Assembly: GCA_949126835.1 (NCBI GenBank)
Contig: OX421507.1
Span: 30,511,382 to 30,575,381, forward strand
Length of the DNA stretch: 64,000 nt
Direction: 5' to 3'
Source: Anisus vortex
Taxonomy: Eukaryota; Mollusca; Gastropoda; Planorbidae
Numbering within the stretch: position 1 is the stretch's first letter; each line of letters starts with the position of its first letter. Both the position numbers and the translations under genes were made by a program. The notes beneath the pieces are model-generated. The model was not told where the DNA came from, ran no database searches, and was given only the letters and a program-made list of their open reading frames with translations. This document shows, piece after piece, positions 32,641 through 62,671 of this stretch.

Positions 32641-32698
32641 ATGCACAGCTTGTTAGTCAAATTATGTGGATGTGGACTTCTTGTTATTTTATTTCAAA
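32641..32698 (+). CDS. Gene 1 exon 1 (signal peptide)
   Basis: ATG plus the hydrophobic CGCGLLVILF; donor AAA|GTAAGT. Identical in length to gene 2 exon 1. Confidence 0.8.
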
Positions 32699-34758
32699 GT
32701 AAGTCTAAGTTGGGCTTTGTTTCTCCAATAAAAATTTATAGCTTTAAGTTACTTCAATAAAAAAAATTATAGCCTTAAATTACGTTAATCAGAAATTATA
32801 AACTTAAGTTTCTTCAATCATAAATTATAGCTTTGTTAATTCAATAATAAATTAAGGCTTATAGCTTCAAGTTTACCTAAGGGCTATACTTTATGATTGA
32901 AGTAGCTTAAAGCTTTAATTTATCTGTAATGTATAAGATAAATTAAAACTTTAAGCTACTTCAATCATAAAGTATAGCCCTTAGGTAAATATCTCTATGC
33001 AAAAAAAACGTGTTTAGGAAGATATGTGTTTAGTTTTTAGGAATTTTAAATAACAACACTTAAATTTCTCTCTTTTCTGAATTATTAAAACTTTATAGAA
33101 CTAGGCTAAATAATTCTTATTTTATGAACTATTATACTTTCTAGAACTAAAATATATATTTTTATTTTCTTGAATTATAAAATTACTATAACTAGAACAA
33201 TTTATTATTTCCTGAAGTACTAAACTTTCTAAAACAAGAATATAGATGTATTATTCTCTAAATTATTAAACTTTCTAAAACTAGAATATAGATGTATTAT
33301 TCTCTGAATTATTGAACTCTCTAGGACTAGAATATAGATTTTAGTATTTTCTGAATCATTAAACTTTCTAGAAGAAGGACAATGTGCCACTGAAATCATT
33401 TCTGTTGCTGTTGGTCAGAACTTTAGTCTTCAAACAGACGTGGGATTTATGGCACAATGGTATGGCACCATAAGTGGTCAGAAAAGAATATTAGCATCAT
33501 GTGATAGCGATGGCTGTAGGAATTTTAAAACAGGTCAGTACACCTAGAAATTATTATCTTATACAAGCAAAATTGCCCGGCGTTGCCCGGGGCATAATTA
33601 AATAGGCCTGTGTAAGCTACATATATAAAGTTTATAAACTACAATGAAATGAAAGCTATAAGTATATTATATATATATATCAACATATATAATTACCGTG
33701 AGTTTGTTTATATGTTTGTTTATACATTTATTTATATTATATAAATGACGGAGAAACTAATGACTACAATGTGTTTTGTGAAGAGACAAAGAAAAGAGAC
33801 TATTACAATAAATACAATGAACGTTTCTTTTCGGTATTTAGTTTTTGTTATTTTTAATTGTTTCTGGTCGCCCTGATCCTGGCATATGCATAATAATTGT
33901 TACTGTCAAGCTTCTGTTATTAAAACGTAGCGAACAGTTGTGTTGACTTGACTTGTTATTAATAATAGCCTATTAAATTAACAATAATAGGCCTATACTA
34001 TTTAAAAGAAAAAAAAAACACAATACCAAAAAATAAAAAGGTAAATAATAAAAAAGCGTAGAAAATAATATTATTTCAACACCATAAAAACTAAAGTGAG
34101 AACGATTTTTTTCGGTATTTAATTTTTATTCTTGCTTATTGTATTAATAAAACAGTGTTGATAGTGTTTCTTTCGGTATTTAGTTTTTGTTATTTTTAAT
34201 TGTTTCTGGTCGACCTGACCCTGGCATATGCATAAGAATTGTGGCCCCAAGGACTGGCGTAGTGTGTAAACTGCCGATACATTCCCATTAAGAGTACACT
34301 GGCGGGCGAACGCATGGGGCACAGCCCCCGCAGCGGGTCCGAGGTCCATTACACTGCCGAGAGGCCACTGGTCTCGGTGGGGAGGAAGCAATGGACGCTG
34401 CAATCCCGTCTCGAGAACCACCCGGTGCCTGGATGCATGTACCTATAGTAGGCCTATAGGATTTATGCTACCGGGTGACAGTGCAGGTATACTGGCGAGC
34501 CACCACAATAATGATCCCTAGGGGAACCGCAGTGAACGATCGCTGGGCTGTGGAAACCTTCCCCGTTACAAGGCACGCCACGCCTTCGGCGTGTCGTTGG
34601 GTGGCTGAAGCCTAGACAGAGATTGCTCAATCCTAAGCGTTACGCCCTGGACACAAGAGCCGAAAGAGACTTAAGAGACGTTTAAATTCGATATTAAAAT
34701 GTAGCGAACAGTTGTGTTGACTTGCCTTGTTATTAATAATATTAAATTAACAATAATA

Positions 34759-34789
<31 letters not shown>

Positions 34790-35722
34790 AAGAGAAGAAT
34801 GGGCATTTCTATAGTAGTATAGCTCTTCTATCCATGCTATTAAATTAGCATGCTCATATACTATCTAAAAGAAAAAATATATATATAAATACAAAACAAT
34901 AAAAAAGGTAAATAATTTAAACAAAATTAGAAAATAATATTTCAAGGCAATAAAAACTAAATTGATAAAGATTTTTTCTGTATTTAATTTTTGTTCTTGC
35001 TTATTGTATCAATAAAACAGTACTGAGAATGTTTCTTTCGGTATTTAGTTTTTATTTTATATTGTTGCTGTCAAGCTTATGGTACCCGGTATTAGAAAGT
35101 AATCATTTATAGGCCTAACTTGTTTTTTTATCATTCGTATCATTTAATTTATAGAGTGTATACAGTCGCCTATTAAAGGATATTCTCAATAGTGACGTAA
35201 ATCCATTAAATAATTAAAACCTTTGGTTACTTTTTATTTAAAAGGATAATGCAAACATCAATAATGAAAAAATAAATAATTTGATAGACATTACGTCATA
35301 CGCTAGTATTTTTTAAAGTAAACAATTGAAACTCTCCAAGCCAAATTGCGGTGCGTAACTTATAAAAAAGGTCTCGCCACATTAAAAAAAACAACAGCAT
35401 AATTGGGGAAACCCGAAAAGACCCTCGCGTTCAACATACAAAATATCGCGTTCAACATAGTAATGAACGGAAATGGCCCTTTGCTATGTACGGTTATATT
35501 TAATTTGCATGGCTGGATCTAACATTTTGAATGTTTTAAATTAACACATTCATGATTATAAGTCATAAAATAAAATTATCTTTTGGAGTACGTTTCCGAT
35601 TTATACATTTAATTTTTTTCCCGATTAGTGAAACGGCTTAGGTGCCTATAGCGAACAAACATATATATATATATAAACAAACAAACAAACTCACGGCAAT
35701 TATATATGTTTGATGATATATG

Positions 35723-35815
<93 letters not shown>

Positions 35816-38800
35816 TGTTCGCTATAGGCTCCTAAGCCGTTTGACTATTCGGGCCAAAAATTAAATGTATAAATTGGAAACGTCCTCCAAAAGATAATTT
35901 TATCTTATCACTTATAATCATAAATATGTTGATTTAAAAAATCCAAAATGTCATATCCATCTATGCAAATAAATATAACGGTACATAACAAATGGCCATT
36001 TCCGTTCATTTACTATATTGAACGCGACATTCACTATGTTGAACGCGAGGGTCTTTCCGGGTTTTCCCAATTCTACTGTTGTTTTTTTAATGTGGCGAGA
36101 CCTTTTTTAAAAGTTACGCACCGCAATTTGGCTTAGAGAGTTTCAATGTTTTACTTTAAACAAAATACTAGCGTATGACGTAATGTCTGTGAAATTATTT
36201 TTTCATTATTGATGTTTGCATTATCCTTTTAAATAAAAGTAACCAAATGTTTTAATTATTTAATGGATTTACGTTGCTATTGAGAATATCCTTTAAAAGG
36301 CGACTTTATACACTCTATAAATTAAATGATACGAATTATAAAAAAACAAGTTAGGCTTATAAATGATTACTTTCAAATACCGGGTACCATAAGCTTGACA
36401 GCAACAATATAAAATAAAAATTAAATACCGAAAGAAACATTATCATTACCGTTTTATTGATACAATAAGCAAGAACAAAAATTAAATACCGAAAAAATCT
36501 TTCTCACTTTAGTTTTTATTTCATTGAAATATTATTTTCTATTTTTTTTAAATATTTTTTACCTTTTTTATTGTTTTGTATTTATGTTTTTCTTTTTCAG
36601 ATAGTATATTATTTTTAATTTAATATTATTAATAACAAGGCAAGTCAACACAACTGTTCGCTACATTTTAATATCAAATTTAAAAGTCTCTTTAAAACAC
36701 CCGGACTAGCCTTTCGGCTCTTGTGTCCAGGGCGTAACGCTTAGGATTGAGCAATCTCTGTCCAGGCTCAAGCCACCCAACGTGCCGTGTAACGGGGAAG
36801 GTTTCCGCAGCCCAGCGATCGTTCACTGCGGTTCCCCTAAGGATCATTATCGTAGTGGCTCGCCCGTATACCTGCACTGTCACCCGGTAGCACAAATCCT
36901 ATACTATAGGTACATGCATCCAGGCACCGGGTGGTTCTCGAGACGGGATTGCAGCGTCCATTGCTCCCCCCCCCCCCCCAGGGACCAGTGACCTCTCGGC
37001 AGTGTAATGGACCTCGGACCCGCCGCGGGGGCTGTGCCCCATGCGTTCGCCCGCCAGTGTATTCTTAATGGGAATGTATCGGCGGTTTACACACTACGCC
37101 AGTCCTTGAGGCCACAATTCTTATGCATATGTCAGGGTCAGGTCGACCAGAAACAAAAAAAAATAAAAAAAAATAAATACCGAAAGAAACATTCTCAACA
37201 CTGTTTTATTAATACAATAAGCAAGAACAAAAATTAAATACCGAAAAAATCGTTATCACTTTAGTTTGTATTGTATTGAAATATTATTTTCTACGCTTTT
37301 TTAATTATTTACCTTTTTATTGTTTGGTATTGTGGTGTTTTTTTTCTTAGATAGTATATTATTGTTAATTTAATAGGCTATTTTTAATAACAAGTCAAGT
37401 CAACACAACTGTTTGCTACGTTATAATACCAGACGCTTGACAGTAACAATTATTATGCATATGCCAGGGTCAGAAACAATTAAAAAGAACAAAAACTAAA
37501 TACCGAAAAGAAACGTTCATTGTAATAGTCTCTTTTCTTTCTCTCTTAACATTAATATTAACTTAACTAATATTGTAATATTGTAGTCGTTCGTTTCTCC
37601 GTCATTTTGACGGGCATAACCACTAGTATATATATATTACTGAAGACATTTAGGAGGTAATTTAAGATAAATATTGTAATCGGTTAAAAATAGATAGGCA
37701 AAGTCTTTTTACTTAACAAAAAGCTAAATTGCCAGGTGTTGCCCGTGGATTTACAATTTTTTGTTAAATGTGATATGAATTGAAAAAAAATATTTTTGTC
37801 ATGTGGACGGAGAATCGAACCCGGGTCGACCGCCTATCAATCCGATACGTAATCCACTAAGCTAGCGAGGACACATTTGCTAAGTCAAATTGCAAAGGTA
37901 AAAAAGCAATAAGGTCACGTGTCTTTAAATAAACCGATTTGATTGGTTAAACACACACACAGAGCCGTATAACGCCTCCCAAAGGAAAATGTAATCTACT
38001 CCACACACTGATAACCGTAGAACTTAGAACTGGCTAGGTTAAGGGGTGGGTTATTGGAGCAGGTGGCGCACACCAAGATCCTGTCCGAGATTAGCCGCCC
38101 CACAAAACGCCGATAGGGCGTGCCGCATAACATAGAGCACTACACTTCTATCACCACCTGCGGAATTCCCATTGGATCATTAACGTGGTGGATCGCTCGT
38201 TTACACGCACTGTCGCAAGGTAGCACAATTTCCAGAATATAGGCCCTGGACATCCAGACACCAAGGCGGTGTTTAGTGCGCTCATTGCTTCCAACCTCAC
38301 TGAGTCTCGGAGACTTTTAGGCAGTGCATTTGCCAATAGGTGTGATCTTAATGTCAGCGTATCGGTGGTTTACACACTTCTCCAGACTTTGAGGCTCATG
38401 ATTCGAACGTATTCTTGTTATAATAAAATGTAAACATAATAATATCATGAATAATAAACATTATATTGTTGTTTTTTGTTCTTAGGTTTTATTGCTAGCG
38501 TACGCAATGTTACAAGAAACTTGAAAGTGACATGGCACAAATATGTCTTGCAGGTGATCAATGTAAGTCCTACACTCACAAGAATTGATAATTTGGGCTA
38601 CACATGGGACATTGTTTTTATTGGTGAGTTCATGTGTTCGTATGCTCGTGTGTTCATGTGTGTGTGTTCATGTGTTCGTGTGTTCATATATTCGTGTGTT
38701 TATATGTTCACGTGTTCATGTGTACATATGTTCATGTGTTCATATTGTAATAAGCGCCTTACAGTGCTTAGGCTCGTTTATCGTCTGACTTGATTAACAC

Positions 38801-41800
38801 GAAACGAGTGTTGATTACAAAACTGTTTAATGAATGAAGAAATACAACTCAGAATAAATACATCACTTTGTAAGACATCAAAACTCGAACGAAAACTGTC
38901 AACATGTCGCACCTTTCAATCCAACACCGATTATATTTAGTGCACAACAAACAAGATAAAATACAGGGTGCGTACATGACAATATGTTCATGTGTTCGTG
39001 TGTTCATATGTTCATATGTTCATATGTTCATGTGTTCATGTATTCATGTGTTAATGTGTTCATATGCTCGTATGTTCATATCTTCGTGTGTGTCATATGT
39101 TCATGTGTTCATAAGTTCATATGCTCGTGTGTTCATATGTTCGTGTGTTCATATGTTCATATTTTCATATGTTCATATGCTCGTGTTTTCATATGTTCGT
39201 GTGTTCATATGTTCATATGCTCGTGTGTTCATATGTTCGTTGCGTTCATATGTTCATGTGTTCATATGTTCACGTGTTCATGTGTTCATATGTTTGTGTG
39301 TTCATATGTTCATGTGTTCATATGTTCATGTGTTCATATGTTCATGTGTTCATATGTTCGTGTGTTCATACTGTTATGGTTGGTTTACATTGGGATCAAA
39401 AGGAATCTTGCATTGTAATGAAAGCCTTTTGTACTTTCTATTAGACTTCTTCGTTAGTGGTTTGAACTTTAGTCAATATTAGATAATAACACTAGTCTTG
39501 CATTCAATCTCATTCAGAAGTTGCAGTTATTCAACTAATTGTGTAGAACAGTGTGAAATTTAATTTAGTTCAAAAACATCAATATCTATATAGTCTATAT
39601 ATACAAAAGCAATAAACTCTAGGGAGAATTGAATTGAATTGGTGAATTTCCGGCCCATCAACATCGAAGGTTATATAGGGCCTTTTTGATAACGTTGTTG
39701 TCATGTTTCTCTTGTATCCATTTTATTGTTCTTATATCTTTAAATACTGTTGTACAGTTGTATGTCTTTAATATATATATAATATAATTGTATTATATAT
39801 TTTGGTTTAAAGTTCATGAAGAGTTCTACAGTAATTGAATTTACGTCGAATTTCACCAAATGTATTGCATTCTACAAAATGTGAGGCACTTTTAAGTTGA
39901 CATTGCTAAGTGTTTCAAGTTATCAAATAGCAGAAATATCAAAGCACCCGGTCCATCTTGTTATAGTCTTTGATCAAAGCAACCGTTCCATCTTGTTATA
40001 GTCTTTGATCAAAGCAACCGTTCCATCTTGTTATAGTCTTTGATCAAAGCAACCGTTCCATCTTGTTATAGTCTTTGATCAAAGCAACCGTTCCATCTTG
40101 TTATAGTCTTTGATCAAAGCAACCAGTCCATCTTGTTATAGTCTTTGATCAAAACAATCGGTACATCTTGATATGGTCTTTGATCAAAGCAACCGGTCCA
40201 TTTTGTTATAGTCTTTGATCAAAGCAACCGGTCCATCTTGTTATAGTCTTTGATCAAAGCAACCGGTCCATCTTGTTATAGTCTTTGATCTAAGCAACCC
40301 GTCCATCTTGTTATAGTCTTTGATCAAAGCAATCGGTACATCTTGTTATAGTCTATGGTAAAACTAAGCCTCGACCCCGAGAGGTAAAAAGAAATCTCCT
40401 ACTTTGAATGTTCCCCCCCCCCAGGTGGATTGATAGCCAAGAATCACGTTTTTTTTCAATGTGTCAAAAAGTCCATCTACGACTTACAAACAAGCCATAA
40501 CATCGACTACTACGGGATTGACGTTACAATTTCCATTTAATTAAAAATAATATTTATTAATATCTCGAAGTGATCTCTCATTGCCCGATGCGCCGAAAGG
40601 CGCTGGAGAATCTAGGTCTAAGTCTCGAAGGTCATACCTCGCCGCCCCCCCCCCCCCCAATCTTCGCGGACAATGAAAGGTCACTGTTCAGTACATTTCT
40701 ACCATTTATAACTGAAGTTCGTAACACTGTCATAATAAGAAGATGTCTAGAATTTGAAACTACGCAGTTAGCTGGCCTTTAGTTGTAGTAGATGCAACGT
40801 CATTGAAAGAGGGCGGGGGAAGGGGTTGATGTAAGAAATGAAAACATTGCTCATATAATATTTAGAACATTTGTTTTTCCTACTTAAACAAATCTTATCT
40901 CCTGTCTGTAATGTATAAGATAGGATCTCATATACTACAGACACCCCTTCTGTAAAGAAGATTATTGCGTCCTACGCTCATACGTGGTCCGAGTCTAGTC
41001 TTGCATTTTGATTAGTGTTTTAAATGATGTTAGGTTACTTGTTTTCTCTGGTTTGTTTAGGCAACCCATTCCATGCCCGGATACCACTCGAGAAGAAATT
41101 GTAGGCCTACTGATATGCATTTTTTCGTCCAGATAGACTAAGAAAAGTGTTTTATCCTTATATTAATTTTTATGTGACCATTGTAAGAGATTGTTATTTA
41201 TTGTATTTCTAATTTAGAGTTTAATCTATTATGTATTATTACTACTTTTCTCTTTGCCCTTCTGTCCTCTATTGTTTTTAGGTTTAGTGATTTAACTAAA
41301 TAAAATTATAAAGAAATGTGTTTTGTAGATCTAACAGTAAGATATTATTTCTGTAGGAAATGAAGTATCTACACTTACACCTGGACCATTCATTCGGACT
41401 ACAGCATTGTTTGCTACAACACCCACACCAGTCACACCAGTATACATGACTACATCATTCTGGACAACTACACCTGCAACATGTTTTCTATGCAGCAACG
41501 ATTCACCTACCACCTACGGTTCTGGTGAACAGTACACCAGGTCTTCAAGTCCTCTTGTTTATGGACTTTCCATCGGCGTCCCCTGTCTGATAGTCATCAC
41601 TACATGCATATCATCACTATGCTGCATAGCCAAGCGCAAAAGAGCGGCCGGAACTCTGGGGCCTGTATCGCTTCAGCCGGGAGTCGCCTCGCGGCCGTAC
41701 ATCGTCCAGGCGAATGACACCCGTCCTCCAGTCTACGACCAGATATTAGTTTTTGGTGTCAGTCTGCCGATGAATCAGGTGCCAACGTCGCCCCAGCTGC

Positions 41801-44800
41801 TCCAGGAGTACGGGTCGCCCCCAGATTACGAGTCACTCCCTCCATCATACGAAAGTGTTGTCCACTTTTATAAACCTATCAATAACGGTGTGATAAAATA
41901 TATACCAGGTAAATATATCAAAAGAAGAATTTTTCTCCTTTTATATATATATATCGTATACATCACAGACACTTATCTTTTTTGTTATTCATTTCAAATG
42001 TATATATTTGGTGTCGGTTAGTAGATAAGACTATACCCTAAAACCATACCATAAAACTTTATTATTTAATATCCAATATTATTGCCTACCCTAAAACTAT
42101 ATCATAATAGCCCTAATATATATACCCTAAACTATACCGTCAAACTATACCCTAAGACTAAAGTCTAAAACTATATCTTAAATTTTACCTTAAAACTATA
42201 CCATAAAACTAAACCTTAAAACTATTGAAGAAGTAACATAGTATCAAAATATTAATAGTGAAATGTAAAATAGATTCATTAAATATTTCTTTTAAAGTAA
42301 TAACAGTAAGCAAAAAGGAAAAGACATTTTGTTAGGATTGCTGATGGCTGATGGCGTTGTTTTTAAAACAAAGATCAGTTCGGGTTCAAATATTATTCTT
42401 CATAATATACTGAAAGTGGCATCTGGTTTTAACAATTATACAGACTGAATAATTTCGAGTCGAATATACTTAGCATGAGTACACTCAGCTAAACAGGATC
42501 CAGTTGTTATCACATTTTTTGGAACCTTTTGAAAGTATATATTTGTTTTTCTCTCGTTCAACAACTCGTTGGGGAGAATTTAAAAAAGTTGTGCCAATCA
42601 CAGTGAAGAGGGAGTCTGAAACACGCTGGGGTGCACGATCAGAAGCTGATAAAGCTATTTATGAAGGACTAGATGAACTATTAGGGCTGTTGGAAAAATT
42701 TTCAGAAGATTCAACTATGACGCCTGACAAAAGAATTGATGCAGATACTTTGCTGGCAGGTATATTAAACTTTAACTTCCTAGCTTTGTTACATTTCTGG
42801 AACATAATACTTGGGAAAATTGATCGTGTCCAAAAAACGGTTGCAGGATCTTACTATGAATTTCATGGAAGCAGCAAGCATCTGATCTTGAATCACTGGA
42901 GCAATTTAACTTGTCAACATTCCTGATAATTTGAGCCAGGTTGCGGTAGACATTGGAAAAACAAGATGCACAACTTGGGGAATCGAGGTTGACAGAAGGA
43001 TTAGACGACAAAGGAGGATGCCTGGAGAATTAGCAAGAGATGCCGACTTTCTGCAGAAGAAGAAATTGCACGTGATATGAACAGCGTAATTGATAGACTC
43101 AGGAGATATCAATACGGTTTTTACGTCTAAAAAAAGCTAAACACCAAAATGAATTTTTACTAGACGTCAAAACTCTTCTTGCTGAGACAAATGTCGATAC
43201 ACTTCGTCAAATTTGCGAAATTTCTACGACACTGGCGTCAATGGTCACGAATTGTGCACAGCAATCGGAGTCTGCAAAATGCTTCTCGGTGCCCGGACTG
43301 AGGTTCTTTGGATCTTCTTGGTTTTGTTGTTTCATATGGAGATGACGTATTTCCGAATCTGCGCATTTCACTGCAAATACATCTAACAATTGCTGTATCA
43401 ATTGCAAGCTGTGAGCTGTCCTTCAGCAAACTGAAGCTTATTTTGTCGTATTTAATTCAATGGGACAAGATCGTCTGAGTCAGGGGTCGGCAACCTAGGG
43501 AACAGAGAACGATTTTTAATGGCACAGGAGTGACTTCCAAGAGGTGTTTTTTTTATTGAAGAAAAAAACATTTTCCAGTTCTGACTGTTGAAGACGATGT
43601 TTCTTAATGACAGAGCAACACATTTCATTTGGTTGAACGCATTTACAAGGACGGGTTAAATCAAGTGGGTTAAATGGACAAACAATTAATGCAGGAAATG
43701 TTTATTTACAACTGTTTAACGTAAATCAATTGTTTACTTCTATTAATAAAATAGTGTAATAAATACCATAATGCTGGATTTATAAGAAGAAATAATAATT
43801 AGTCAGTAATATTTATTTTATTACAAAACATAACTTGTTTGGTATGAATATTGAATCAAAATTAGAAACTTTATTTGAATTAAAGGGAGATAATTAGCCC
43901 GTTTTAATTATGCTATTATTTCTAATATTGTGTTTCTTTTTTTACTTTTAATAGACTAAATTGACTAAATGGTCTACAACTAATAACGTTATGATGACCA
44001 AACTGTAAAATGTAGTTGAAAATTATATAAAAATGAGATCTATATGACTAAAACATTGTATGCACATTTTTTAAACATTACATTAACTACCCAGTTTGTA
44101 TGATTACCACAAATAAATTCCGCTCTATTATAGTGTTGTGAGTAAGTGATTGTAGCATTGAGCAAATTAAAGACAATCTCAGTTAAACTGAGAATAAACT
44201 ATCATCAATAGGCCTATTATCAGTTGCTAGATCCTTATCTGGACAACCAAATGATAATGTTTACAAAATTATTACCAAAAAATGTGAAAGTTTGGTCATA
44301 TTATTTTTTTTGGTATAAATGCAAATAAAAAGGTTGATAATCACAAACGTTAATTATTGTTATTAAATATAAAACGCTTTACCGTTTTTTTTTCATAAAT
44401 GTCCTTTGCTTTTGGCCTTGGTCTTGCTACGGAGTTAAATTGTCTTATAAAAAAAATAAATAATAAAACAAGTATAATAAAGCAAGTTGACTTTTAGGCT
44501 GTGGCACGCTGAACGGCTTAGAAATCCTACTTTGGCATGCATTAGCAAAAGGTTACCAACCCCTGGTCTGTGTGATCTTGCACTCCTTAGCATCGAAAGA
44601 GAAACACTTGAGAAAATTAATTTTGACGACGTGGTTGACGAGTTTGCGACAGTAAAATCAAGGAGGATCAATTTGTTGTAGACTATGTCTATTCCAGTCA
44701 TGTATAATTAGTAGAATATATATTATTTTCAAATAAATTGTTTACAATCGCAAAGAGACTTATTAGTCTGTATTCTATTTCATTACAATATCAGATGCTT

Positions 44801-47800: not shown

Positions 47801-49922
47801 TCTAAATCATTCAGCGTGCCAAACTAGGATTTCTAAATCATTCAGCGTGCCAAACTGGGATTTCTAAATCATTCAACGTGCCAAACTAGAATTTCTAAAT
47901 CATTCAGCGTGCCAAACTAGGATTTCTAAATCATTCAGCGTGCCAAATTAGGATTTCTAAATCATTCAGCGTGCCAAACTAGGATTTCTAAATTATTCAG
48001 CGTGCCAATCTGGGATTTCTAAATCATTCAGCGTGCCAAACTGGGATTTCTAAATCATTCAGCGTGCCAAACTGGCGTTTCTAAATCATTCAGCGTGCCA
48101 AACTAAGATTTCTAAAACATGCAGCTTGCCGAACTGGAATTTCTAAATCATTCAGCGTGCCAAACTGGCGTTTCTAAATCATTCAGCGTGCCAAACTAAG
48201 ATTTCTAAAACATGCAGCTTGCCGAACTGGAATTTCTAAATCATTCAGCATGCCAAACTAGGATTTCTAAATCATTCAGCGTGCTAAACTGGGATTTCTA
48301 AAACATTGAGTGTGCCAAACTAAGATTTCTAAAATATTCAGTGTGCCAAACTAAGATTTCCAAAACATTCAGCGTGCCAAACTAAGATGTCTAAAACATT
48401 CAGCGTGCCAAACTAGGTTTTCTAAATCATTCAGCGTGCCAAACTAGGATTTCTAAATCATTCAGCGTGCCAAATTGGGATTTCTAAATCATTCTGCGTG
48501 CCAAACTAGGATTTCTAAATCATTCAGCGTGCCAAATTAGGATTTCTAAATCATTCAGCGTGCCAAACTAGGATTTCTAAATTATTCAGCGTGCCAATCT
48601 GGGATTTCTAAATCATTCAGCGTGCCAAACTGGAATTTCTAAATCATTCAGCGTGCCAAACTATGAGTTCTAAATCATTCAGTGTTCCAAACTGGGATTT
48701 CTAAATCATTCAGCTTGCCAAACTGGCGTTTCTAAATCATTCAGCGTGCCAAACTAAGATTTCTAAAACATGCAGCTTGCCAAACTGGAATTTCTAAATC
48801 ATTCAGCATGCCAAATTAGGATTTCTAAATCATTCAGCGTGCCAAACTGGGATTTTTAAATCATTTAGAAATGCCAAACTATGATTTCTAAATCATTCAG
48901 CGTGCCAAATTAGGATTTCTAAATCATTCAGCGTACCAAACTAGGATTTCTAAATCATTCAGCGTGCCAAATTAGGATTTCTAAATCATTCAGCGTGCCA
49001 AACTGGGATTTCTAAAGCATTCAGCGTGCCAAACTGGCGTTTCTAAATCATTCAGCGTGCCAATCTAAGATTTCTAAAACATTCAGTGTGCCGAACTGGG
49101 ATTTCTAAATCATTCAGCATGCCAAACTGGGATTTCTAAATCATTCAGTGTGCCAAACTAGGATTTTATATTTTTATATTTTTTTTATATATTTAATAAG
49201 AAATTAACGTGTTTGTGATTTTAATTCTTTTATATTTGAATTTACACCAAATAATCCAAAATGTTATTACAAAACTTTCACAATTTTGGTAGATCTAATT
49301 ATTTTGTAAAATTTAGTTGTCAAGGTAAGGATCTAGCAACCGCTACTATTAATTATATTTTGTTCTCAGTTTACCTAGATTTTCTTTAATTTGTTTAAAG
49401 ATTGTAAAAAGTAGAATCGAATGTCGTTAAGTGGAATTGATACGTAGTAATCATACAAACTGGGTAGTTAACACAGTCTGAAAATTTATTTGCATTAACA
49501 ATGCAACGAATGAAAAAAAATGCCGTTAGAAGCTCTTCGGGGCCACACTAAAATGCTTGGCGGGCCGTTTTGTGGCCCGCGGGCCGCCTGTTGCACACCC
49601 TTGGTCTAGAACATAACCTAACACTAAATTTTTTCATCAAGATCTCTCCCAGAGTCATATCTAACTAACGCGTCATAATTTATTGCGTCATACTTTATTG
49701 CGTCGTACTTTATTGCGTCATACTTTATTGCGTCATAATTTATAGCGTCATACTTTATAGCGTCATACTTTATTGTGTCCTACGTCACAACTTTATTTTC
49801 TAGTTTATATTTATGTTTGAGATTAATCAAATGCCATACATTGAATTTATCTCTAATGTTTTTATGAGATGTTAACGATTATTTTTTTTTTGTTCTTTCT
49901 TTCAAAAGATCCATCAACATGA
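32641..49922 (+). CDS. Receptor-like gene 1: single-pass membrane protein with PPxY tail
   Basis: Spliced CDS: 32641-32698, 33372-33533, 38486-38623, 41357-41908, 49909-49922. Total 924 nt, 307 aa, every intron GT-AG and phase 1. Residues 1-19 are a signal peptide. The ectodomain (20-120) has sequons at N36, N81 and N99, Cys 24, 63 and 68, and Trp 49, 90 and 114; it may be a divergent Ig-like fold but lacks a clear Ig signature. A Thr/Pro stalk with CFLC (162-165) leads to a transmembrane helix at ~186-210, then KRKR. The tail has PPVY (243-246), PPDY (274-277) and PPSY (281-284), ligands for WW domains such as those of Nedd4-type ubiquitin ligases. It ends YIPDPST. No known family was recognised. 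The clean exon joining and the equally clean second copy argue that it is real and probably functional. Confidence 0.8.
32872..32989. repeat. 54-bp hairpin in gene 1 intron 1
   Basis: Arms 32872-32925 and 32936-32989 are inverted copies with one mismatch, separated by the 10-nt loop GTAATGTATA. Around it, short direct repeats of ATAAATTATAGCTTTAAGTT occur at 32730-32860. Confidence 0.9.
33372..33533 (+). CDS. Gene 1 exon 2 (ectodomain part 1)
   Basis: Acceptor CTTTCTAG, donor CAG|GTCAGT. Encodes QCATE, NFSL, AQWYGT and SCDSDGC. Too short to stand out as an ORF. Confidence 0.8.
34211..34680 (-). repeat. Family C repeat, left palindrome arm
   Basis: Inverted partner of 36690-37140. Shared words include TCCGAGGTCCATTACACTGC and GCATGGGGCACAGCCCC. 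GC-rich compared with the surrounding intron. Confidence 0.8.
36690..37140 (+). repeat. Family C repeat, right palindrome arm
   Basis: Same family as 38045-38425 and 59170-59580: GTGGCTCGCCCGT, GCACTGTC-CC-GGTAGCACAA and CGGTTTACACACT recur in the same order. An open frame at 37007 is not supported as a gene. Confidence 0.8.
37800..37876 (-). mobile_element. tRNA-like SINE head
   Basis: On the minus strand TAGCTTAGTGG (A box) and GGGTTCGATTCTCC (B box) are about 35 nt apart inside a 70-nt tRNA-like segment beginning GTGTCCTCGC. No acceptor-stem closure with a discriminator was found, so it is SINE-derived and not a tRNA gene. Confidence 0.6.
38045..38425 (+). repeat. Family C repeat in gene 1 intron 2
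   Basis: Shares position and flanks with 59170-59580 in gene 2 (GGTGGGTTATTGGAGCAGGT before, exon 3 acceptor after), so it was present before the genes duplicated. Confidence 0.85.
38486..38623 (+). CDS. Gene 1 exon 3 (ectodomain part 2)
   Basis: Acceptor TTGTTCTTAG, donor TTG|GTGAGT. Encodes FIASVRNVTR, KYVLQVINVS and TLTRIDN. Confidence 0.8.
38630..38745. repeat. (TGTTCATA/TGTTCGTG)n array, left part
   Basis: Degenerate 8-10-bp units beginning right after the exon 3 donor. Interrupted by unrelated DNA at 38746-38984. Confidence 0.85.
38746..38984. mobile_element. Possible small insertion splitting the array
   Basis: A 240-bp non-repetitive block with ends CATATTGTAAT and, inverted, CATATTGTCAT. 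No coding capacity; possibly a MITE. Confidence 0.35.
38985..39372. repeat. (TGTTCATA/TGTTCGTG)n array, right part
   Basis: Continuation of the array; Cys/Val/His-rich open frames across it in all plus frames are repeat artefacts. Confidence 0.9.
39950..40360. repeat. 35-bp minisatellite in gene 1 intron 3
   Basis: About 12 copies of TTTGATCAAAGCAACCGTTC plus CATCTTGTTATAGTC. Each unit contains the palindrome TTTGATCAAA. Confidence 0.9.
40361..40904. other. Intron 3 spacer, shared with gene 2
   Basis: Contains a C14 run near 40645. From AGATGTCTAGAATTTGAAAC at 40741 it aligns with gene 2 intron 3 from 60301, so this part predates the duplication. Confidence 0.7.
40905..41330 (-). mobile_element. 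LINE-A 3' fragment in intron 3 of gene 1
   Basis: Minus-strand LINE-A end: CTGTAATGTATAAGATA tail, AAGAAGATTATTGCGTCCTA, CCATTCCATGCCCGGAT. It sits directly before exon 4, exactly as the fragment at 60445-60850 does in gene 2. Ancestral insertion. Confidence 0.85.
41357..41908 (+). CDS. Gene 1 exon 4 (stalk, membrane helix, tail)
   Basis: Acceptor ATTTCTGTAG, donor CCAG|GTAAAT. Holds the Thr-rich stalk, the transmembrane segment and nearly all of the cytoplasmic tail. Reading past the donor gives intronic AT-rich sequence. Confidence 0.85.
42020..42235. repeat. Degenerate (ACTATACCCTAAA)n
   Basis: Imperfect 11-14-bp repeats of ACTATACC(C/T)TAAA at the start of intron 4. Confidence 0.65.
42504..43472 (+). 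pseudogene. hAT transposase, middle part
   Basis: Reads FESIYLFFSRSTTRWGEFKK, ESETRWGARSEADKAIYEGL and LALLHFWNIILGKIDRVQK, then frameshifted pieces. The TRWxAR motif and LxxWNIIL are typical of ZMYM1-like hAT transposases. Multiple frameshifts and stops from about 42840 on. It ends GQDRLS, interrupted by the element at 43481. Confidence 0.75.
43481..44565. mobile_element. Non-autonomous hAT (family G) inserted in a hAT transposase
   Basis: Ends CAGGGGTCGGCAACC and GGTTACCAACCCCTG are inverted; flanks GTCTGAGT (43473-43480) and GTCTGTGT (44566-44573) are an 8-bp target duplication with one mismatch. The host frame resumes precisely after it. Confidence 0.9.
44574..44681 (+). pseudogene. hAT transposase, C-terminal end
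   Basis: DLALLSIERETLEKINFDD, then a VVDEFA motif to the stop: the terminal dimerisation segment that completes the frame broken at 43480. Confidence 0.8.
44998..45770. mobile_element. hAT MITE containing a 24-bp satellite
   Basis: Begins CAGGGGTCTCAA and ends GAGACCCCTG (perfect 10-bp inverted ends). The right side has GGGCCGCATGCAGCCCGCGG, typical of Charlie-like MITEs. No clear target duplication. Intron 4 of gene 1. Confidence 0.75.
45025..45440. repeat. 24-bp satellite, ~15 copies
   Basis: Near-identical TGTGTCATTTCATCACTTAA plus GAGA. The unit is a multiple of 3, so it is open in several frames on both strands. It starts 27 bp inside the MITE terminus; the terminus-proximal CAATCTCGGATGAATCCATG recurs twice at the right end. 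Confidence 0.95.
45912..46130 (+). mobile_element. SINE-S copy
   Basis: tRNA-like head (GGTGGTCGGCTGACG ... GGTTCTGGAATCGAATC), then GTCCCTGAGTCTACCCAGCT, CACCTAGTACGCCGTGGCCA and GAACGCTGCTTCACCGGCCC. Confidence 0.8.
46332..46755. mobile_element. hAT-type MITE with exact 8-bp target duplication
   Basis: Flanked by CTTGAAAT at 46324-46331 and 46756-46763. Ends TAGAGGCTTACCGAA and, inverted, TAGTGGCCGACCGAA. The interior is rich in TTTCGGTTTCGG. Confidence 0.85.
46975..47127. repeat. ~53-bp tandem repeat, 3 copies
   Basis: CAAATAACGTACCGTTACGT then CAATAATCAG. Each unit contains the near-palindrome AACGTACCGTTACGT. Confidence 0.8.
47137..49603. mobile_element. hAT MITE (family G) inflated by a 31-bp satellite
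   Basis: The left edge AAGGGGACGATAACCTTTTG plus ATAACAGTGTGCCAAA aligns with the left end of 31534-31748. The right edge GGGCCGCCTGTTGCACACCC ends in CTTG. Flanking GTCTAGTG and GTCTAGAA resemble a target duplication, though they match at only 6 of 8 bases. Confidence 0.65.
47160..49170. repeat. 31-bp satellite, ~65 copies
   Basis: The unit is CATTCAGCGTGCCAAACTAG plus GATTTCTAAAT, with many single-base variants and some higher-order blocks (47590-47650 is echoed at 48070-48200). The founder unit is visible once in other family G elements, e.g. 31561-31610. Confidence 0.95.
49665..49790. repeat. 15-17-bp repeat, ~8 copies
   Basis: (GCGTCATACTTTATT)n with TAATTTAT variants; upstream of the exon 5 acceptor of gene 1. 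Confidence 0.85.
49909..49922 (+). CDS. Gene 1 exon 5 (terminal DPST-stop)
   Basis: Pyrimidine tract then TTCAAAAG|ATCCATCAACATGA. The split codon becomes Asp, then Pro-Ser-Thr-stop. The same 14 nt and acceptor occur in gene 2. Confidence 0.75.
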
Positions 49923-50100
49923 AAGACGCAGCATTGAAGAGAAGAAACAAATTGTTTTCATAATGACTCGTACCAAAAAATACATTATGTATTAACATTG
50001 AACTATAAAGCCTAACTTGTGTAACTATTTAATAATACATATAAATAACAAATGAACAAAACTGTAATAAGTGTTACGTTTTGTGTATCTGTATTATAGT
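49923..50100 (+). other. Gene 1 3' UTR region
   Basis: Follows TGA. GACGCAGCAT is shared with the gene 2 3' UTR, after which the copies diverge. No canonical AATAAA is evident; AATAATACATATAAATAA is AT-rich. Confidence 0.5.
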
Positions 50101-53215: not shown

Positions 53216-53285
53216 ACTAGTAGTTAGCGTAAGAAGTTCTGACCTATCCTTAGGATGAAGATGATTTGTTGAAATTGGCGGGTAA

Positions 53286-55510: not shown

Positions 55511-55529
55511 CATTAAATAAATAAAATGT

Positions 55530-56760: not shown

Positions 56761-56768
56761 TTCTATAG

Positions 56769-57160: not shown

Positions 57161-57164
57161 TTCT

Positions 57165-57345
57165 ATAGTATCAAAATGTCACATTTTCTTAGTCTATTCG
57201 TTCTTTAGTATCAAAATGTCACTTTTTCTGAGTCTATACGTTCTGTAGTATCAAAATGTCACATTTTCTGAGTTTATACGTTCTGTAGTATTAAAATGTC
57301 TTATTTTCTTAGTCTACACGTTTTGTAGTATCAAATGTCAGATAT
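57165..57345. repeat. ~40-bp minisatellite upstream of gene 2
   Basis: 4-5 copies of GTTCTGTAGTATCAAAATGT plus CACATTTTCTGAGTCTATAC; counterpart of 31935-32413. Confidence 0.85.
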
Positions 57346-57587
57346 CTGAGATATCTTCCGCTTACGTTCGGAGTTTCACGATCACTACAGTCGCACTGGA
57401 GCGTCTATGAGCACACTGTAACCTCTTGTATATATTACATATTTCCTATGAGGTGCTATTCATACACTCATTGTGTATACATAAAATCTAGATTTTTTTT
57501 TATGACACGATATCTAGCTCATCATTCATTCAATTATCATGGTATACTTACAGAAGACTATTTAAAGGTAAAGGTAAAAGGTACGCC
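57346..57587 (+). promoter_or_regulatory. Conserved 5' flank of gene 2
   Basis: GAGATATCTTCCGCTTACGT, GCGTCTATGAGCACACTGTA, GTATATATTAC and CTTACAG|AAGACTATTTAAAG match the gene 1 flank in order and spacing. Confidence 0.6.
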
Positions 57588-57645
57588 ATGCACAGCTTGT
57601 TAGTCAAATTATGTGGATGTGGACTTCTTATTATTTTATTTCAAA
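57588..57645 (+). CDS. Gene 2 exon 1 (signal peptide)
   Basis: 58 nt; protein identical to gene 1 except V to I; donor AAA|GTAAGT. Confidence 0.8.
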
Positions 57646-60600
57646 GTAAGTCTAATTTGGATTTTGTTTATGCAATAATAATTTACAGCTTTAAGTTTCT
57701 TCAATCATAAATTATATCCTTAAGTTACTTCAATCATAAATTATAGACTTACGAAAATATAACCTTGCAAAAAAATGTGACGTTTGGGATGATATATGTT
57801 TAGTGTTAAAAACTAGAACTAGAATATAGATTTATTATTTTCTTGGATTATTAAATTTTTAGAACTAAAACAATCTATTATTTCCTAAATTATAAAACTT
57901 TCTAAAATTAGAATATAGATTTATTATTTTTTGAATTATTAAACTTTCTAGTTGAAGGACAATGTGCCAATGAAGTCCGTACTGCGGTTGGAAATAACTT
58001 TAGTCTTGAAACAGAAGTTATTGGATCCATTGTGGTATTTAAGGCACAATGGTATGGCACCCTAAGTGGGCAGAGAAGATTAATAGCATCATGTGATAGC
58101 GATGGCTGCGCAAATTATAAAACAGGTCAGTGCACTTTGAAATTTCTATCTTATATATTACAGACTATACTAGATAAATTTACTATAAAATTACTATAAA
58201 TAAATTAAAAAATATAAGTTTGTTCTATGCTCATCTGTGGTTCGAGTCTATTCATGCACTTTTATTTGTGTGTTAAATTCTGTTACTGGTTTTACCTGGT
58301 GCAGGCTGGGATGTTTTTCCGAGACTGGAAGGTGTCTACCCAGCACTGACGGGTACCTGACCTTAGTTGTGGTAAAGTAAAGGCGGCTGTGCATAGCGCT
58401 GGCCACACAATCACCTAGTATGCCGTGGCCATAGAAACTGGTGACGGCTGCTCACCGGCCCTATTGATAGAATTGGTCCGATGGGATACTTTTACTACGT
58501 TTGAAACTTACTTAAGAAAATAGATTTCGGTTATTATTTGTGTCTATGACAATGTAATTTGAACATTCTCTTTAGTAACAGCACATGTCACTCAAGAATA
58601 GTTTATGAATTTCTGTTGTACGTTTTGTTTAACTAACATTAGAATGTGAATCCAAGCCCAGTGATTATATTTGTCAATACAAAGCAATTTAAAAAAAGGA
58701 AAATGTCATCTACTACACACACTGAAAATGTCATATACTACACACACTGAAAATGTCATCTACTACACACACTGAAAATGTCATATACTACACACACTGA
58801 AAATGTCATCTACTACACACACTGAAAATGTCATCTACTACACACACTGAAAATGTCATCTACTACACACACTGAAAATGTCATCTACTACACACACTGA
58901 AAATGTCATATACTACACACACTGAAAATGTCATCTACTACATACACTGAAAATGTCATCTACTACACACACTGAACATTTCATCTACTACACACACTGA
59001 AAATGTCATCTATTACACACACTGAAAATGTCATCTACTACACACACTGAAAATATCATCTACTACATACACTGAAAATGTCATCTACTACACACACTGA
59101 AAATGTCATCTACTACACACACTGATAACAATAGATCTCAAAACTGGCGAGGTTTTTTGGGGTGGGTTATTGGAGCAGGTGGCGCACACCAAGATCCTGT
59201 CCGAGACTAGCCGCCCCACAAAACGCCGATAGGGCGTGCCGCATAACAGAAAGCACTACACTTCTATCACCACCTGCGGAATTCCCATTGGATCATTAAC
59301 TTAGTGGCTCGTTGCTCGCTCGTTTATCCGCACTGTCGCCAGGTAGCACAATTTCCAGAATATAGGCCCTGGACATCCAGACACCATGGCGGGGTTTAGT
59401 GCGCTCATTGCTTCCAACCCCACCGAGTCTCGGAGCCTTTTAGGCAGTGCAATTATCCTCGGACGAGCAACAGGGGGATGTCCTCCATGTGTTAGCCCAC
59501 CGGTGTGCTCTTTATGTAAGCGTATCGGTGGTTTACACACTTCTCCAGACTTGAGGCCCATGGTTCGAACGTATTTTTGTTATAATAATAAGTAAACATA
59601 ATAATATCACGAATAAAAAACATTCTATTGTTGATGTTGTTTTTGTCTTCAGGTTTTATTGCCAGCGTAAACAATCTCACCAGATCAGTCCCATGGTACA
59701 AATATGTTTTGCAGGTGATCAATGTAAGTCATACACTCACAAGAATTGAAAATTTTGGCTCCACCTGGAACATTGTTTTTATAGGTGAGTTCATTGTTTT
59801 GAGATTTTCAATCAACTCTGCTTCTTCTTCGTTCTCAATATTTGAAAATGGAGGGGTTCAAACAACAAAGTTTGTACAACCATGGTGAATTGCACGGTGG
59901 TTTCCAGGTCTGCCTCTTTTCCATACAGTTTCGAGGTGGTGAAGGTCATCTATGGTAAGAACCTGTTACGAGCTGTTTCAACTAGTGGACAGGCTTGGAG
60001 CACATGCTCTGTGTTCTCAGGAGTCATCCCACATGGGCAATCTTTACTGGTTCCTATGCCTAGCCTTCGGTACATATTTTATATTAGTCTGTTATTCCCG
60101 GTCCAGTGTCTAGACAATGAGCTCTATATCATGTGATGTAATAACAAAATAAATACCTTGACCTTGACCTAAAGCAGAAGTCGTCAAGTCACCGATTCTA
60201 GACTTGGCACGGCGAGATATTTTACAAGGCATGCGGAAAATTTAAAATGGAGCTCCAATTTCTTTTACGAGAAATTTAGTTCTAGAGCAAGATGACTTTT
60301 AGATGTCTAGAATTTGAAACTGCACAGTCAATGCTTTAGCCTGCCTGTAGTAGATGTAATGTCATATGAAGCGTGGAGGGAAGGGAGTTGATGTAAGAAA
60401 TGAAAACGTTGCTCGTATAATATTTCGAACATTTGTTTTTCTTACTTCAATTAAACAAATCTTATATCATATATTGCAGACGCTCCTTTTATAAAGAAGA
60501 TTATTGCGTCCTACTCTCATCCGTGATCCGAGTCTAGTCTGGCATATTGATTATTGTTTTAAACGATTTTAGGTTACTTGTTTTCCCTGGTTTGTTTAGG

Positions 60601-62671
60601 CAACCCATTCCAAGCCCGGATGCCACTCGGGAAGAATGAGTACGTAAATATACATTTTTTCTTGCAGATGGACTAAGAAAAGTGTTGTTAGCTTTATATT
60701 TATGAAATCATTGTAACAGATTGTTATTGTATTATATTTAAAGTTAGAATGTAATGCCTTATATATTATTACTACATGTACTTTCCTTTTTTGCCTTTCT
60801 GTTCTCTAGTAATTCTATATTTAGTGATTTAACTAAATCAAATTATAAGGAAATGTGTTTTGTAAGATATTATTCTTTTGTAGGAAATGAAATATCTACA
60901 CTTGATTCAGACGTTTGGGCTACATCACACGCCCCGTGTTTTCTATGCAGCAACGAGTTACCTACCACCGACGGCCCGCCTACCACCATCACCTACGACC
61001 CGTACACCAGGTCTTCAAGTGCTCTGTTTATTGGACTTTCTTTAGGCGTCCCTTGTCTGATGCTCATCACTATTTACATATCATTACGATTAAAACGATG
61101 GTGTATAGCCAAGCGCAAAAAAGTGGCCAGAACTCTGGGACCTGTATCGCCTCAGCCGGGAGTCGCCTCGCAGCTGTACGTCGTCCAGGCGAATGACGCC
61201 CTTCCTCCAGTCCACGACCAGATATTAGTTTTTGGTGTCAGCCTGCCGATGAATCAGGTGCCAACGGCGCCCCAGCTGCCCCAGGAGTATGTGTCGCCCC
61301 CAGATTACGAGTCACTGCCTCCATCCTATGAAAGTGTTGTCCACTTTTATAAACCTAACAAAGACGGTGTGATCAAATATATCCCAGGTAAATCTATTTG
61401 AAAACTAAAACTATATATGGTTGTTCATGTCACGAGGTGGGATGTATAAGAGCGAAACGGTTTAATATCGTCAGATAAATTTAGTGCAATATAAGCTCTC
61501 AAACAAATTCACCTACCCCCCCCCCCTTTAAATGAGACTGTGCTCACCCTGCCTCGTGCCTTGTCGAATTAGGGGCCGTTGTTTTCACGCGGGGCTTGAG
61601 GGGAGGGGGTGGTCATTGGTATCGGTGGACCTCGCAGAGAATTTACCGCCGGCACCATCAGGCTTTGGCCCGAGTCGAATGAAGGGCCATCCCGTCCGAG
61701 CGTCTTAGATAATTAGCACTTTGGCATGTATTGCATCATTAACAGTATAGCAACATTAACAGTATGGCGCCTTTAGCAGTATAGCGCCATTAGCAACTTA
61801 GCAGTATAGCACCATTAGCAACTTAGCAGTATAGCACCATTAGCAGTATGACGCCTTTAGCAGCATAGCGCCATTAGCAACTTAGCAGTATAGCACCATT
61901 AGCAGTATGGTACCATTAGCAGTATAGCGCAATTAGCAACTTAGCAGTATAGCACCATTAGCAGTATGGTACCATTAGCAGTATAGCGCAATTAGCAGTA
62001 TAGCACTCTTAGCAGTATATCGCCATTAGCAGTATAGCGCCATTAATAGTATAGCGTCATTAGCAGTAGGCTATAGCACTCTTAGCAGTATAGCGTCATT
62101 AGCAGTAGGCTATAGCACTCTTAGCAGTATAGCGTCATTAGCAGTAGGCTATAGCACTCTTAGCGGTATAGCGCTATTAGCTGTATAGCCCCATTAGCAG
62201 TATAGCACTCTTAGCGATAAAGCGCCAGTAGCACCATTAGCAGATTATGAAATTGTTGGCGTCTTTTGAATTTCCGAAAGCCGATCCTAACCTGTCCCGC
62301 CTTTGTATATAGGTATATTTATTCTGTGGTTATGACCTTTGAAAGAAGGAAATACAGGGGCGGACCACTCCTCCTGACAAATCATTGACGGTGGCTAATT
62401 TCTTGTGACAATTTTAACTCAGTTGGTCCTGAGAGTATCCTATTATCTTATCTTATATATTATTACAGACGCTCCTTCTATAAAGAAGATTATTGCGTCC
62501 TACACTCATCCGTGGTCTGAGTCTTTATTAATGTTTTAAATGGTGTTAAGTTGCTGGTTTTCTTGGTTTGTTCAGGCAACCCATTCCATGCCCCAATGCA
62601 ACTCTGATGCTTGTATGAGATGTTAACTATTTTTGATCTTTCTTCTTGTATCAAAAGATCCATCAACATGA
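57588..62671 (+). CDS. Receptor-like gene 2: single-pass membrane protein with PPxY tail
   Basis: Spliced CDS: 57588-57645, 57952-58125, 59653-59784, 60884-61387, 62658-62671. Total 882 nt, 293 aa, all introns GT-AG and phase 1. Signal peptide 1-19; ectodomain with sequons N35, N85 and N101 and Cys 24, 67 and 72; short stalk with CFLC (140-143); membrane helix ~168-189 followed by basic residues; tail with PPDY (260-263) and PPSY (267-270). The first PPxY of gene 1 is PPVH here. By hand count, exon 2 is about 68%, exon 3 about 78% and the main tail about 85% identical to gene 1. Exon 2 has 4 extra codons; the Thr-rich part of the stalk is much shorter. Both copies are open, so both may be expressed. 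Confidence 0.82.
57952..58125 (+). CDS. Gene 2 exon 2 (ectodomain part 1)
   Basis: Acceptor CTTTCTAG, donor CAG|GTCAGT. Carries the IGSIVVF insertion relative to gene 1. Confidence 0.82.
58149..58298 (-). mobile_element. LINE-A 3' fragment
   Basis: TATCTTATATATTACAGAC, TCTATGCTCATCTGTGG, TTCGAGTCTATTCATGCACT. The gene 1 intron keeps only ATCTTATACA at this point, where the palindrome begins. Confidence 0.7.
58299..58500 (+). mobile_element. SINE-S fragment (headless)
   Basis: GCAGGCTGGGATGTTTTTCC through CCGATGGGATACTTTTACTA; the tRNA-like head is missing. Confidence 0.8.
58703..59125. repeat. 25-bp minisatellite, ~17 copies
   Basis: ATGTCATCTACTACACACAC plus TGAAA. Gene 1 intron 2 has only one unit (ATGTAATCTACTCCACACAC at 37989). 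Confidence 0.95.
59170..59580 (+). repeat. Family C repeat in gene 2 intron 2
   Basis: Positional counterpart of 38045-38425. Its right part, GAGGCCCATGGTTCGAACGT, is less decayed than in gene 1. Confidence 0.85.
59653..59784 (+). CDS. Gene 2 exon 3 (ectodomain part 2)
   Basis: Acceptor TTTGTCTTCAG, donor ATAG|GTGAGT. FIASVNNLTR, KYVLQVINVS, TLTRIEN. Confidence 0.82.
59890..60165 (-). pseudogene. LINE ORF2 C-terminal fragment
   Basis: The minus strand reads KDCPCGMTPENTEHVLQACP, LVETARNRFLP, then KLYGKEADLETTVQF. The C-x-C-G...T-x-H-V-L-x-x-C finger is the C-terminal motif of several LINE ORF2 proteins. It sits in gene 2 intron 3 and was not found in gene 1. The plus-strand right edge has an AATAAATACCTTGACCTTGA tail. 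Confidence 0.7.
60301..60444. other. Intron 3 spacer shared with gene 1
   Basis: AGATGTCTAGAATTTGAAAC and GGAGTTGATGTAAGAAATGA align with 40741-40904. Confidence 0.75.
60445..60850 (-). mobile_element. LINE-A 3' fragment in intron 3 of gene 2
   Basis: Same fragment, orientation and distance to exon 4 as 40905-41330 in gene 1. Confidence 0.87.
60884..61387 (+). CDS. Gene 2 exon 4 (stalk, membrane helix, tail)
   Basis: Acceptor TTCTTTTGTAG, donor CCCAG|GTAAAT. The open frame begins upstream in LINE-A-derived intron, so the upstream residues are not protein. Confidence 0.87.
61720..62260. repeat. 17-bp-based repeat (TTAGCAGTATAGCGCCA)n
   Basis: Irregular array of 17-26-bp units with AACTTAGCAGTATAGCACCA and GTAGGCTATAGCACTC variants; intron 4 of gene 2. 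Confidence 0.9.
62445..62630 (-). mobile_element. LINE-A 3' fragment in intron 4 of gene 2
   Basis: TATCTTATCTTATATATTAT tail, AAGAAGATTATTGCGTCCTA, CCATTCCATGCCCC. No equivalent before exon 5 of gene 1. Confidence 0.85.
62658..62671 (+). CDS. Gene 2 exon 5 (terminal DPST-stop)
   Basis: TATCAAAAG|ATCCATCAACATGA, same 14 nt as gene 1. Confidence 0.77.

Follow-up and report, generated by a model that had tools for sequence, protein, structure and literature searches.

Two tandem paralogs in Anisus vortex predicted to encode single-pass surface proteins with a PPxY-bearing tail and a possible immunoglobulin-like ectodomain

Two five-exon genes lie in tandem

In a window of 64,000 nucleotides from the planorbid snail Anisus vortex (assembly GCA_949126835.1, contig OX421507.1, positions 30,511,382 to 30,575,381 of the forward strand; the coordinates below are those of the window), two genes, here called copy A and copy B, lie one behind the other on the plus strand. 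They are intact-looking tandem paralogs predicted from the DNA sequence, and share their gene structure, the order of protein parts and the motifs. A first-pass annotation had proposed two same-strand loci of five exons each with GT-AG phase 1 introns, joined lengths of 924 and 882 nt and products of 307 and 293 amino acids (aa). These models were re-derived from the DNA, and the outer limits, a start at 32641 and an end at 62671, were confirmed. The exons, identified by translation except for exon 5, which was identified by a shared 14-mer, are:

32641..32698, plus strand: copy A exon 1, start codon and signal peptide
33372..33533, plus strand: copy A exon 2, first half of the ectodomain with WY and CDSDGC; carries the nanobody-like profile match
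38486..38623, plus strand: copy A exon 3, second half of the ectodomain
41357..41908, plus strand: copy A exon 4, Ser/Thr-rich stalk, CFLC, membrane helix and tail
49909..49922, plus strand: copy A exon 5, end of the tail (rest of Asp, Pro-Ser-Thr) and stop
57588..57645, plus strand: copy B exon 1, start codon and signal peptide
57952..58125, plus strand: copy B exon 2, first half of the ectodomain; carries the profile match
59653..59784, plus strand: copy B exon 3, second half of the ectodomain
60884..61387, plus strand: copy B exon 4, short stalk, CFLC, membrane helix and tail
62658..62671, plus strand: copy B exon 5, rest of Asp, Pro-Ser-Thr and stop

When rebuilt from the DNA, the five exons of copy A (32641-49922) joined to 924 nt encoding 307 aa, and those of copy B (57588-62671) to 882 nt encoding 293 aa. 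Each of the eight introns has GT-AG ends and lies in phase 1, cutting the frame after the first base of a codon, and the donors gtaagt, gtcagt, gtgagt and gtaaat follow each other in the same order in both copies, one per equivalent intron. The exon lengths of copy B differ from those of copy A by 0, +12, -6, -48 and 0 nt, all multiples of three. Exon 5, which is 14 nt long and identical between the copies, completes an Asp codon and then encodes Pro-Ser-Thr and the stop. Preceded by AG, this 14-mer occurs at two places on the plus strand of the 64 kb, one downstream of each exon 4, and a 26-nt pattern for exon 5 (up to three mismatches) gave two matches on both strands against 0.00 expected. 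Because the same five exons are kept twice, the indels keep the frame and the ratio of nonsynonymous to synonymous divergence (dN/dS) is below 1, the models are considered to be more than chance.

The 3' end of intron 1 in copy A is formed by a 46-nt tandem array of 6.6 copies (33073-33373), the unit of which carries the acceptor-like CTTTCTAG. The predicted acceptor of this intron is the last array copy, so that decoy acceptors lie upstream of it.

Predicted protein architecture

Signal peptides were called by eye and from hydropathy, and membrane helices using a Kyte-Doolittle window of 19 residues. The order of parts described in the first-pass annotation, namely signal peptide, sequon-bearing ectodomain, Ser/Thr-rich stalk with CFLC, one helix, basic stop-transfer, PPxY tail and terminal DPST, was recovered in full. 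Both copies have a signal-peptide-like start, followed by an ectodomain of ~100 residues that spans exons 2 and 3 and contains three sequons (N36, N81 and N99 in A; N35, N85 and N101 in B). The Ser/Thr-rich stalk with CFLC comprises 65 residues, 25 of them Ser/Thr, in copy A and 46 residues with 15 Ser/Thr in copy B. Outer cysteines after the signal peptide are found at 24, 63, 68, 162 and 165 (A) and at 24, 67, 72, 140 and 143 (B). A single hydrophobic helix per copy, with Kyte-Doolittle peaks of 2.29 (A) and 2.27 (B), is followed by the basic stop-transfer CIAKRKR or CIAKRKK and a tail of 99 residues with the DPST end. Lysines lie close to the PPxY motifs, in KRKR/KRKK at the membrane and in FYKP and IKYIP at the end. 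Motifs were located by translation and helices by hydropathy:

33500..33517, plus strand: copy A CDSDGC motif
41482..41493, plus strand: copy A CFLC
41554..41625, plus strand: copy A membrane helix (approximate; near residues 186-209 of 307; peak 2.29 at residue 192)
41725..41736, plus strand: copy A PPVY (in PPVYDQI)
41818..41829, plus strand: copy A PPDY (in PPDYESL)
41839..41850, plus strand: copy A PPSY (in PPSYESV)
58092..58109, plus strand: copy B CDSDGC motif
60937..60948, plus strand: copy B CFLC
61024..61092, plus strand: copy B membrane helix (approximate; near residues 169-191 of 293; peak 2.27 at residue 169)
61204..61215, plus strand: copy B PPVH, at the site of the first PPxY of copy A
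61297..61308, plus strand: copy B PPDY (in PPDYESL)
61318..61329, plus strand: copy B PPSY (in PPSYESV)

All PPxY motifs of the tail have the extended form

Copy A carries three PPxY motifs, in PPVYDQI, PPDYESL and PPSYESV, and copy B has the latter two. All five have the form PPxYxxPhi, with Ile, Leu or Val at position +3. When the tails were shuffled, the observed number of PPxY motifs was reached in a fraction of 0.0002 (A) and 0.0076 (B) of 100,000 shuffles each, and that of PPxYxxPhi in 1 (A, three motifs) and 115 (B, two motifs) of 200,000 shuffles, figures for which the motif was fixed after the fact and in which A and B are non-independent. The tail tyrosines also fit YxxPhi sorting motifs, and it may be speculated that tyrosine phosphorylation could switch the functions of both PPxY and YxxPhi.

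Nedd4-family ligases recognise ENaC through its extended motif PPxYxxL, and ubiquitylation and endocytosis follow, as described in the available text of PMC2582799. As all five PPxY motifs have this ENaC/Nedd4 extended form, the reading of the tails as WW-binding is strengthened. The prediction of a single-pass surface protein with a tail of WW-binding type, made in the first-pass annotation, therefore finds support and gains from the PPxYxxPhi form.

A possible immunoglobulin V-type domain in the ectodomain

The ectodomain had been annotated as unrecognised. This holds for Pfam, which finds nothing; a profile search evaluated against decoys, however, points to an immunoglobulin (Ig) V-type fold, for the exon 2 half only. 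When a profile of the two ectodomains was compared with PDB sequences (E up to 10), all eight matches were nanobodies/VHH, with a best E of 0.041. Decoys, consisting of the reversed alignment and three column shuffles, gave 0, 3, 1 and 4 matches, none of them antibodies, with a best E of 0.73. In the printed alignments, the WY of the query aligns on the C-strand WY of the nanobodies, and a Thr aligns with the B-strand Cys in three of the four, these being the three that reach that position. By eye, D-N-L-G-Y-T-W in one copy and E-N-F-G-S-T-W in the other would fit the F strand with Trp at the Cys position. The canonical cysteine pair of the B and F strands is not found, Thr standing at B and, by eye only, Trp at F, and CDSDGC may provide a replacement bond for the missing B-F disulfide. 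In our judgement the ectodomain is probably a degenerate V-type Ig domain.

Full-length copy B gave ten rows in PDB, headed by six acetylcholine-receptor chains (E 0.14-0.27), together with three nanobodies (E 0.2, 0.99 and 1.3) and one malate dehydrogenase. The receptor matches cover residues 108-185, i.e., the end of the ectodomain, the stalk and the helix, and were judged to be chance. The ectodomain gave two weak Pfam matches, to Adeno_E3_CR1 (E 0.12) and Collagen_bind_2 (E 0.097), which did not reach their cut-offs and were disregarded.

Divergence between the two copies

In the protein alignment, 210 of 280 residues are identical between A and B, and the NG86 method gave a dN of 0.141, a dS of 0.217 and a dN/dS of 0.65 (bootstrap 0.45-0.98; 1 or higher in 9 of 500 replicates). 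Of the seven gaps in the exonic alignment, five have a length divisible by three, and the remaining pair (71 and 1) together make 72; among the gaps in introns and 5' flank, only 5 of 24 are divisible by three. As exons 2-4 are no more similar between the copies than several stretches of intron, purifying selection on the coding sequence is only modestly supported. By region, conservation is highest in the tail (dN 0.075; 83 of 99 residues identical), followed by signal peptide and ectodomain (89 of 116, dN 0.135) and by stalk and helix (38 of 65, dN 0.27). Positive selection was not seen, dN/dS being below 1 in all three regions.

At the nucleotide level, exon 1 is identical at 57 of 58 positions, exons 2-4 at 84-86%, and the intron and 5' stretches at 74-91%. 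In the 3' flank the identity drops to 67% and then 53%, and the last block common to both loci ends at 49934 and 62683, respectively, 12 nt past the stop. The 400 nt before exon 3 (38086-38485 in A, 59253-59652 in B) match at 91% of 348 aligned positions and exceed exons 2-4 in similarity, which may be due to conversion or a shared repeat. The first-pass annotation had advised looking for further copies nearby; tblastn of the window revealed none beyond the two loci, all matches outside them having an E of 1.2 or worse.

Homology searches

Relatives were sought in a database of 5.8 billion proteins at E up to 10. No relative was found for full-length copy B among 482 scored candidates, nor for the A and B alignment among the 7,997 scored candidates that share most words. 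Mollusc proteins are present in this database: Pinctada has two rows and Saccostrea one among the best 120 of 7,949 matches to a reverse transcriptase of the window. Since some molluscs are included, the negative result has some meaning, coverage of near relatives being uncertain. A scan of viral contigs with two peptide patterns revealed no relative, Pfam gave no match for the whole proteins or the copy A tail, and Rfam gave none at the gathering threshold. An endogenous viral envelope was set aside because of the five phase-1 exons and the negative viral-contig scan, and a FREP because no fibrinogen domain appeared in the Pfam scan.

Surrounding sequence

Transposon debris and tandem arrays are abundant in the window, where 17 tandem-repeat rows score at least 300. 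A Pfam scan of 10 open reading frames (ORFs) identified three reverse transcriptases, one endonuclease and one zinc knuckle. The retroelement ORFs lie on the minus strand at 12666-14726, 18039-18965, 25852-28606 and 54112-55509, and represent three reverse transcriptases, one of them adjoining an endonuclease ORF, and a gag-like protein with a zinc knuckle. For the reverse transcriptase mentioned above, the top three of the best 120 of 7,949 matches are 77-85% identical, and the named rows among these 120 include bivalve molluscs (50-53%), Candidatus Thiodiazotropha assemblies (51-52%) and a bird (36%).

Intron 2 of copy A contains a large fold-back element around an AT microsatellite (33873-37473), with six nested inverted pairs of 117-342 nt that are 85-95% complementary. 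Intron 2 of copy B (1,527 nt) is too short for this element, but a stretch of ~290 nt (59274-59558) is 69% like part of it. A 31-nt tandem array of ~65 copies (47161-49166) is located in intron 4 of copy A, and other large arrays are found at 1-659 (31-nt units), 7693-9776 (34-nt) and 19611-21245 (29-nt). Intron 4 of copy A also holds, on the plus strand at 42474-42926, an ORF of 150 residues which reads like a transposase-derived fragment and has no Pfam match.

Interpretation and alternatives

With about an even chance in our estimate, copies A and B encode a surface receptor with an Ig-like ectodomain, the level of which would be set by WW/Nedd4-type ubiquitylation and endocytosis. The products would be type I membrane glycoproteins with a signal peptide, one divergent Ig V-like domain lacking the canonical B-F disulfide, a mucin-like stalk that varies in length and carries a CxxC, a single helix and a tail of 99 residues. 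The tandem PPxYxxPhi motifs would recruit WW domains, most likely those of a Nedd4-family ubiquitin ligase, and the recruited ligase would ubiquitylate either the protein itself or a paired receptor. Endocytosis would follow, and the ligase would thereby control the amount of receptor on the surface. In this proposal the Ig fold, the WW binding, the turnover and a role of the outer part in recognition are what we infer. A more far-reaching proposal, to which we attach a small probability, is that of a lineage-specific family in which a V-like Ig domain with a CDSDGC bond replacing the B-F disulfide is wired by composite PPxYxxPhi motifs directly to Nedd4-type ligases and each copy is tuned separately, in the manner of a fast-evolving cluster of immune receptors. 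As motif number (three versus two) and stalk length differ between the paralogs, surface half-life and ligand reach would, in such a family, be tuned per copy.

Several observations count against a surface receptor of this kind and have to be weighed together with the rival explanations. At the site of the first PPxY, copy B reads PPVHDQI, and it has only two PPxY motifs. The dN/dS of the tail (0.56) is close to that of the ectodomain (0.62), so that the slower tail mostly reflects a lower overall rate, and since introns and 5' flank are about as similar as the exons, the copies are fairly recent duplicates in which constraint is only modestly shown. The gene models are derived from DNA alone, and they could be partly wrong or the copies unexpressed, exon 5 being the doubtful part: exon 4 might instead be read through, which would add 4 codons in B and 37 in A. 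The similarity of A and B extends through non-coding flanks, and intron 4 of copy A, with its 31-nt array, is 8,000 nt long. Such an error has a low probability, as exon 5 and its acceptor could be located in both loci with the same donor, the indels keep the frame and the reading frames are open in both copies. A more substantial doubt concerns the ectodomain, which might be an unrelated small non-Ig domain whose nanobody matches arise from a chance WY...GQxR likeness. The best E is just 0.041, no Ig model was found in Pfam at E up to 10 with the whole proteins or the ectodomain, and the canonical cysteines are absent. The exon 3 half of copy B alone had no PDB match, so that the exon 2 half carries the Ig match, and acetylcholine-receptor rows lead the single-sequence search. 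Still, all eight profile matches belong to one fold and none of the eight decoy matches does, Thr falls on the B-strand Cys in three of four alignments, and D/E-x-x-x-x-x-W can be placed on the F strand by eye. A non-Ig domain is therefore regarded as somewhat unlikely; it overlaps with the other readings and would leave the tail mechanism unaffected.

PPxY motifs bind many WW proteins, and the partner could be another one, as in Yorkie- or WWOX-like signalling, or the motifs could act as budding late domains that load vesicles. PPxY late domains recognised by NEDD4 are known (available text of PMC6803667), but all five motifs have the form found in ENaC, a Nedd4-2 target, and no feature here points to vesicles, which leaves these options with little probability. 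Rather better placed, though unlikely, is a trafficking adaptor of the Commissureless/PRRG kind, the PY tail of which would take other membrane proteins to Nedd4 and the lysosome while the ectodomain finds cargo in cis and senses nothing outside. The short single-pass form and the tandem PY motifs would suit such an adaptor, and the last motif of both copies, LPPSYESVV, resembles GLPSYDEAL of Comm and GLPSYEQAV of PRRG4 in its PSY, acidic and hydrophobic residues (as given in the accessible part of PMC5578492). Against it stand the signal peptide and the sequon-bearing, possibly Ig-like ectodomain of ~100 residues on a mucin-like stalk, as well as the lack of a PRRG-type Gla domain in Pfam. 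Comm, moreover, is reported in the same part of that source to have no signal sequence and to act on Robo at the midline independently of Nedd4 binding (PMC5578492). A surface receptor under WW/Nedd4-type control is the reading preferred here.

Comparison with known systems

With ENaC, the comparison extends to the motif alone: ENaC is an ion channel, and its PY motif is likewise an extended PPxYxxL and a Nedd4-family site (in the available text of PMC2582799), position +3 being Ile, Leu or Val in copies A and B. Commissureless and PRRG4 are similar in being single-pass proteins with tandem PY motifs and an extended motif (L/PPxY, acidic, hydrophobic), as far as described in the accessible part of PMC5578492; by eye, LPPSYESVV has this motif with one extra Pro. 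Copies A and B differ from them in having no Pfam match to a Gla domain and, instead, a signal peptide, a possible Ig-like ectodomain and a stalk. The outer C*C*CC*CC pattern of Shisa-like proteins, described in the same source, does not agree with the outer cysteines of A or B.

The first-pass annotation had also pointed to the Biomphalaria Guadeloupe-resistance complex (GRC) as a natural comparison, without claiming homology. Resistance of Biomphalaria to schistosomes has been linked to clusters of single-pass proteins, many of which have no known domain, and the roles proposed for them are recognition and outside-in signalling, with no pathway named in the available text (PMC4361660, PMC7494358). 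Proteins of the GRC/PTC TM1 class cross the membrane once, have over 50 residues on either side of it and expose more than half of their length to the outside (available text of PMC4361660). These three coarse features fit: by hydropathy only, both copies have more than 50 residues on each side of one helix, and the outer part, signal peptide included, makes up ~60% (A) and ~57% (B). The V-like profile match, with its best E of 0.041, is the sole hint of a beta-rich outer part as in TM1.

Compared by description, the GRC (PTC1) and PTC2 of Biomphalaria glabrata resemble the present pair in being clustered and single-pass with long outer and inner parts (PMC4361660, PMC7494358, both in their available text). 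PTC2 proteins are described there as lacking known domains and as without homology beyond the gastropods (PMC7494358), and the term "WW domain" is absent from that paper. GRC genes differ, as four of seven carry fibronectin III domains (PMC4361660) and others match TMEM154, or chitinase and phosphatase (PMC4361660, PMC10875847), in the parts of these papers available. Ig-only genes of Biomphalaria sudanica are likewise single-pass with an Ig domain and lie in polymorphic clusters; there the Ig domain was seen by domain prediction, whereas copies A and B have no Ig match in Pfam, and that text gives no description of the tails of the B. sudanica proteins (available text of PMC10875847). The term "PPxY" is absent from the B. 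sudanica paper (PMC10875847), and mollusc and snail literature searches for PPxY, of limited listing, turned up no paper with the word, though such papers may exist.

The kind of locus is thus already known, and a composition of hidden Ig domain and PPxYxxPhi tail was not met in the accessible portions of the literature examined. Should the pair be of another kind than the Biomphalaria clusters, it would be a duplicated gene with an uncharacterised product. The genes may offer a handle on the signalling of snail surface-receptor clusters, but count as ordinary until information on relatives, expression and structure becomes available. If the family is of the same locus kind, the outer part would be a hidden Ig domain instead of an unknown one, and the tail would give a testable link from such receptors to the WW/ubiquitin machinery.

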